Under the pieces are notes generated by a model, which saw only the letters and a program-made list of their open reading frames with translations, ran no database searches and was not told the origin of the DNA. A DNA stretch of 28,801 bases. Source: Candidatus Lindowiibacteriota bacterium. GTDB lineage: Bacteria; Lindowbacteria; 2-12-FULL-62-27. The first letter of the stretch is position 1; each line of letters opens with the position of its first letter. Position numbers and translations under genes: made by a program. Below are positions 19,315 to 19,388 of the stretch, piece after piece. The DNA lies in assembly GCA_023249255.1 (NCBI GenBank), contig JAHFCY010000010.1, forward strand, positions 1 through 28,801, written 5' to 3'.

Positions 19315-19388
19315 CCTCCTCGGTCAGAGTGATATCATGATATCATGATATATATCATGATATCATGATATCACTTTGTTTCCCGGTC
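19315..19388 (-). repeat. Palindromic ATGATATC element, copy 1 (atpG-atpD gap)
   Basis: A perfect 48-bp palindrome (19328-19375) is made of overlapping ATGATATC/TGATATCA units around a central ATATAT. With one mismatch it extends to 19325-19378. Read in the direction of atp transcription it is preceded by GACCGGGAAACAAAG and followed by CTGACCG and the AGGAGG of atpD. Very similar flanks surround copy 2 at 26276-26348, so the repeated unit is about 73 bp, longer than the palindrome. In RNA it would make a hairpin of over 20 bp just before the atpD ribosome binding site. It could be a miniature mobile element, an operator or an RNA control element. Confidence 0.9.

Follow-up and report, generated by a model that had tools for sequence, protein, structure and literature searches.

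The window analysed here, a stretch of 28,801 nucleotides from a genome of Candidatus Lindowiibacteriota, carried two palindromic array elements, neither assigned to a strand. Element 1 (19325..19378, core 19330-19373), which read CAGAG-(TGATATCA)2-TGATATATATCA-(TGATATCA)2-CTTTG, lay between its upstream neighbour atpG (F1 gamma; 19421..20284, minus strand), whose stop codon was located 42 nt before the element, and its downstream neighbour atpD (F1 beta; 17898..19304, minus strand). Element 2 (26287..26339, core 26291-26334), AAAG-(TGATATCA)2-TGATATATATCA-(TGATATCA)2-CTTTG, separated the gene for an rmlB-like NAD-dependent sugar dehydratase (25247..26293, plus strand) from a downstream rmlC-like cupin gene (dTDP_sugar_isom; 26357..26812, plus strand); the stop codon of the rmlB-like gene was inside the element and was the TGA of its first box. 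The central 12-mer, TGATA-TA-TATCA, occupied positions 19346..19357 in element 1 and 26307..26318 in element 2. The initial annotation had described a 48-bp perfect palindrome between atpG and atpD, and this was present (19328-19375); it extended to 54 bp (19325-19378) if one mismatched pair, CAGAG vs. CTTTG, was allowed. The twin reported between rmlB and the rmlC-like gene was a perfect palindrome over 52 bp (26287-26338), but the two copies did not form a pair: at least 26 loci of the genome carried such arrays. As had been noticed, each copy ended only a few nucleotides upstream of a Shine-Dalgarno sequence. An 18-mer gave eight matches vs. 0 in 100 shuffles (chance expectation nil). An Rfam search of the window detected no known RNA family at the palindromes, its sole match being a tRNA gene (13048-13119, minus strand).

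Two metagenome assemblies carried the arrays: the window's genome (3.35 Mb, 366 contigs, 89% complete) and Candidatus Lindowbacteria RIFCSPLOWO2_12_FULL_62_27 (G001), from a second genus of the family. The 16-mer TGATATCATGATATCA had 42 sites in the window's genome (0 for the reversed control pattern) and, together with further patterns, defined the 26 or more array loci; G001 contained 15 full copies and one remnant. These copy numbers are lower bounds, as degenerate copies may be missed. A half-element remnant (ATATCATGATATCACTTTG) was located immediately before a tsaD-like gene in G001 (L197:3020-3060; G001:C43:177330). Pattern searches of a genome from the third genus (G002) and of 38 further genomes found no arrays, and when some 85,000 species genomes were scanned, none outside the family showed dispersed arrays, so that, among the genomes searched, only two carried them. 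Matches outside the family were single sites except on one rumen Clostridia contig, where six TGATATCATGATATCA sites fell within 1 kb (L106:4800-5760), the sole local cluster. A phage origin was rejected, 15-mer matches in viral contigs being isolated half-sites and not arrays.

The element could be described by the formula CAAAG-(TGATATCA)m-TGATA.NN.TATCA-(TGATATCA)n-CTTTG. The central dinucleotide NN was uniform inside each genus and different between the two: TA in the window's genus (12-mer TGATATATATCA) and GC in that of G001 (12-mer TGATAGCTATCA in 14 of the 15 copies, GG in the remaining one), which is what a trans-acting protein determining this dinucleotide would be expected to produce. 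Box numbers (m,n) were (2,2) or (2,3)/(3,2) in G001, and ranged in the window's genome from two boxes without the 12-mer up to (2,3). Only a handful of substitutions were found in 1,672 core bases, while flank bases decayed: conservation of CAAAG outward from the core was 98, 94, 83, 77 and 69%, and the sixth base was already random. The flank similarity previously proposed thus ended at CAAAG/CTTTG in the 26 copies, and a repeated unit of about 73 bp was ruled out. One locus (L047:3353-3420) showed an element to which part of a second end (TGATTTCACTTTG) was appended, resembling a partial duplication of the right end.

The RNA of the element would form a strong hairpin with a stem of more than 20 bp (z = -6.5), so the earlier suggestion of an RNA hairpin held as far as folding is concerned. 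It was not borne out by covariation: left and right flank bases within a copy agreed no more often than shuffled pairs, which speaks against selection for a longer stem. This lack of covariation, together with box numbers that were often unequal on the two sides, is more easily reconciled with recognition of DNA one box at a time than with an RNA hairpin. The element is most likely an operator array composed of contiguous 8-bp palindromic TGATATCA boxes around the central 12-mer.

The arrays were placed at gene ends. Of 39 element-bearing junctions that could be classified, 30 were tandem, 9 convergent and none divergent, compared with 140 tandem, 19 convergent and 22 divergent among the 181 other junctions of the same loci (divergent, 0/39 vs. 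22/181; Fisher P = 0.017). In 22 of 41 copies the element contained the TGA stop codon of the upstream gene, and only rarely was the stop codon more than about 72 nt away. The array carries TGA in all three frames of both strands, so that a gene reading into the array terminates within it, in some cases with a tail such as KVIS. Tandem arrays commonly ended 15-45 nt before the next start codon, distances that are approximate because gene starts came from a simple home-made coding-potential caller. The initial proposal that the element carries or targets a ribosome binding site was not supported, since the nine convergent junctions have no downstream start codon and closeness to the upstream stop codon was the better rule. 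These convergent sites, and flanks that are random beyond CAAAG/CTTTG, also led to the rejection of a 73-bp unit bearing a ribosome binding site. The functions of the neighbouring genes were unrelated (atpG/atpD, lpxA/lpxI, guaB/guaA, an ABC ATPase pair, amidohydrolase/glyA, rpmB, ksgA, gltX, tyrS, tgt and others), and a metabolic regulon was therefore rejected.

Insertion was assessed with one chimeric query (2,945 aa) made of 95-aa and 90-aa pieces of the flanking genes. At most sites the same gene pairs were adjacent and array-free in G001 and/or G002, the arrays being inserted relative to empty sites as in a classical MITE. The atpG-atpD gap, which the initial annotation had singled out for comparison with relatives, was 20 nt long and element-free in G001; rmlB and rmlC were adjacent without an array in G002; the start and stop of the ABC ATPase pair overlapped in G001 with no array; and guaB and guaA were separated in relatives by a few bases, again with no array. 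Reciprocally, most array sites of G001 were empty in the window's genome or in G002. Since an operator could not drift into overlapping start and stop codons, spread of the arrays by insertion is well supported. The idea of a miniature mobile element was therefore strengthened: instead of two copies without a positional rule there were at least 26, inserted at gene ends into junctions that are tight when empty. No consistent target-site duplication was observed over 40 sites (direct repeats, P = 0.10; best of 448 offset tests, z = 4.4). Y1_Tnp genes numbered 6, 8 and 10 in the three genomes, with most in the array-less one; none was beside an array, all being on other contigs or many kb away, and mobilisation by a RAYT was rejected. 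The analysis identified no copying enzyme for the arrays.

Four junctions carried an element in both genera (a cyclase 3' end, moaC-aminotransferase, amidohydrolase-glyA and rpmB-kinase-like), where about 0.2 would be shared by chance assuming some 2,500 junctions. A fifth shared array lay upstream of a ribbon-helix-helix (RHH) gene whose other neighbours differed between the genera. Four-fold degenerate sites of the shared neighbouring genes were 27-49% identical, the lowest value (27%, kinase-like gene) coming from a poor pairwise alignment. The boxes at the four junctions and at the RHH gene were unchanged, central dinucleotide aside, except that one array (L023) carried a shifted variant. 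Unchanged boxes in the face of saturated synonymous divergence require strong selection or genome-wide homogenisation, and either could account for the genus-wide TA/GC difference. Two array-bearing gene ends of the window's genome (L183:2694-3485 and L025:3795-4457) were convergent neighbours in G001 (C20) and G002 (C136), which suggests recombination between arrays or a mis-join.

A candidate binding protein emerged from the box itself. Outside the family, 52 loci of GTDB genomes matched GTGATATCATGATATCA, and in 29 of them an RHH antitoxin-type gene started 2-83 nt downstream, followed in most cases by a PIN-toxin-like ORF. These 29 loci spanned many bacterial phyla plus archaea, and 27 of 31 aligned RHH proteins matched the Pfam family FitA-like_RHH. 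Because 29 of 52 unrelated loci front an RHH antitoxin-type gene, TGATATCATGATATCA can be read as an RHH operator word, a relationship which the initial annotation had overlooked, together with the copy that fronts an orphan RHH gene. A literature search found, among four titles, no relevant paper joining TGATATCA with an antitoxin.

In the window's genome, the sole FitA-like_RHH gene above the curated cut-off (C244) was directly downstream of an array, which immediately preceded its Shine-Dalgarno sequence; in G001, the only match (C30), below the cut-off, was also directly downstream of an array (the two arrays are L030 and L048). The two proteins (64 aa in the window's genome, 65 aa in G001) were 65% identical orthologs and both had a basic C-terminal tail. 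No toxin gene was found beside the orphan RHH gene in either genome, the next gene being convergent and not encoding a PIN protein, and the flanks of the RHH gene differed between the two genera. The array-less G002 gave no RHH match even at E 0.1 (one genome, 81% complete). A FitA-like RHH/PIN toxin pair elsewhere in the window's genome (C59; L184:2934-3601) had TGCTATCA boxes before its ribosome binding site, the same position as the array before the orphan gene. Binding of the arrays by the orphan RHH protein is likely. The beta-strand was KRLLIGL in the window's genome, KRLIIQL in G001 and KRTVIQL in an actinobacterial antitoxin with the same boxes; a dependence of the central dinucleotide on the G/Q difference is speculative.

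Our preferred reading, to which we give a probability of roughly 60%, is that the arrays are dispersed operators of one autoregulated orphan RHH protein, spread in the manner of REPs into gene ends. This relative of FitA/VapB-type antitoxins would most likely bind every array, with one dimer per box and adjacent dimers cooperating, by analogy with MetJ on met boxes; omega on its heptad arrays is a second model for such operator arrays. With an array directly before the ribosome binding site of its own gene, autorepression is probable. At least 25 further arrays were inserted, REP-like, into the 3' ends of unrelated housekeeping genes, often supplying the stop codon. There, an array covered by protein over 44-52 bp would most likely punctuate transcription, lowering read-through into the next operon gene or between convergent genes; such a roadblock effect is proposed tentatively and may well not hold. 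Several observations weigh against this reading: arrays at 3' ends, in tandem and convergent junctions, are what one expects of REP elements and not of a promoter operator; the target genes share no function; the analysis turned up neither a copying enzyme nor target-site duplications; the RHH gene has different flanks in the two genera; its absence from the third genus rests on a single genome of 81% completeness; and the arrays were seen in just two genomes.

The arrays combine features of several known systems. As in FitAB/VapBC antitoxin operators (FitA-like RHH, PF22513), a TGATATCATGATATCA or TGCTATCA box stands just before an RHH gene, and the orphan protein matches the FitA-like_RHH family. 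Those operators have two boxes, whereas the arrays described here have up to five plus the central 12-mer, lie at gene 3' ends and occur tens of times at places other than the regulator gene; this gene, unlike its counterpart in a type II toxin-antitoxin module, is not accompanied by a toxin gene. The varying number of adjoining 8-bp palindromic boxes recalls the met boxes of MetJ, described as a “tandemly repeated 8bp palindrome” in the title of a 1989 paper (cited in PMC3274233), and polymerisation of the omega RHH protein on heptad arrays has been suggested (PMC4803016). Unlike both, the arrays have a different box, a central 12-mer making a mirror axis and a nearly invariant, inserted sequence; nor do they sit in the promoters of a functional regulon, as in MetJ, being at the 3' ends of unrelated genes. 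REPs are short dispersed palindromes located 3' of genes, where the adjoining genes are tandem or convergent, and frequently provide a stop codon (PMC3733652); the 26 and 15 full copies resemble REPs and BIMEs in being mostly 3' of genes and often supplying that codon. They differ from the GTAG/CGTC superfamilies in ending with CAAAG/CTTTG on both sides with no unpaired GTAG/CGTC tag, in the lack of a RAYT (Y1 transposase) gene flanked by arrays in the three genomes, and in their near-perfect symmetry, tandem boxes and candidate cognate DNA-binding protein.

A REP/MITE-like palindromic repeat, giving an RNA hairpin at mRNA 3' ends that would serve as a stabiliser, as a processing site or for nothing, is the strongest competitor, though an improbable one; the link to RHH genes would then be incidental, for example if an antitoxin operator gave rise to the repeat. 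REP-like placement, the stable predicted stem and the unrelated neighbours are all as this explanation would have them; in addition, the third genus carries hairpin arrays of another kind, one of which occupies the atpG-atpD junction as well. It sits badly with the absent end tag, with Y1 transposases that are present in all three genomes, commonest in the array-less one and far from arrays, with the uncompensated left and right flank changes and unequal box numbers, and with boxes unchanged across saturated synonymous divergence.

The arrays of the third genus were inverted arrays of the octamer NGTATCGG, dispersed in G002 at the atpG-atpD junction of element 1 (L186:705-790; G002:C141:40704-40787) and in about 30 further places, in a genome without TGATATCA arrays. 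Like the TGATATCA arrays they are dispersed inverted arrays of 8-bp units; unlike them, they consist of a non-palindromic unit whose first base is degenerate, have arms on either side of a spacer and occur in a genome with no findable FitA-like RHH gene. An unlikely generalisation is that the genera of this lineage each have a private octamer punctuation at gene ends, with inverted arrays by the tens built from a single 8-bp word (TGATATCA around a TA or GC centre in two genera, NGTATCGG in a third); the word would be homogenised genome-wide and would evolve in step with the DNA-binding protein that recognises it. G002 also contained a GTCATTCCCGCGAAAGCGGGAATCCAG-type inverted repeat between genes (L195:780-870; G002:C136).

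A portable RHH-controlled promoter, in which TGATATCAT, repeated within the array, serves as an extended -10 box and every insertion creates an internal promoter, is less probable still. The same boxes occupied the place expected of a -10 in unrelated toxin-antitoxin operons, some with TTGACA 16-17 nt upstream, a scan found hexamers resembling an extended -10 on either strand of every array, and the distance from tandem arrays to the next start codon would suit a promoter. However, the nine arrays between convergent genes could produce only antisense RNA, the flanks lacked a conserved -35, and a -35 with at least 4 matches was present in only 12 of 26 antitoxin operators, maybe little above chance. 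There is only a slight chance that the arrays are chromosome-organising sites, dispersed landmarks of an RHH protein acting in the nucleoid or in partition: the neighbours have no functional theme and omega-type RHH proteins bind short-repeat arrays and are thought to polymerise (PMC4803016), but placement tracked gene 3' ends and not any chromosomal position visible in a 366-contig assembly. An assembly or binning artefact is very improbable: palindromes that are identical may lead to mis-joins, and relatives have the L183 and L025 gene ends side by side in convergent orientation, yet two independently assembled genomes had the same architecture with different centres and shared four junctions, most junctions kept the gene order of array-less relatives, and mis-joins would yield divergent arrays as often as convergent ones, whereas no divergent array was seen.

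Antitoxin operators and REP-like dispersed palindromes, normally separate kinds of sequence, are here joined in one element. If the orphan RHH protein binds the arrays, an antitoxin-type repressor would have been turned into a genome-wide gene-end binding protein. The uniform, genus-specific dinucleotide makes the co-evolution of a protein with tens of its DNA sites testable with two small proteins and two oligonucleotides.
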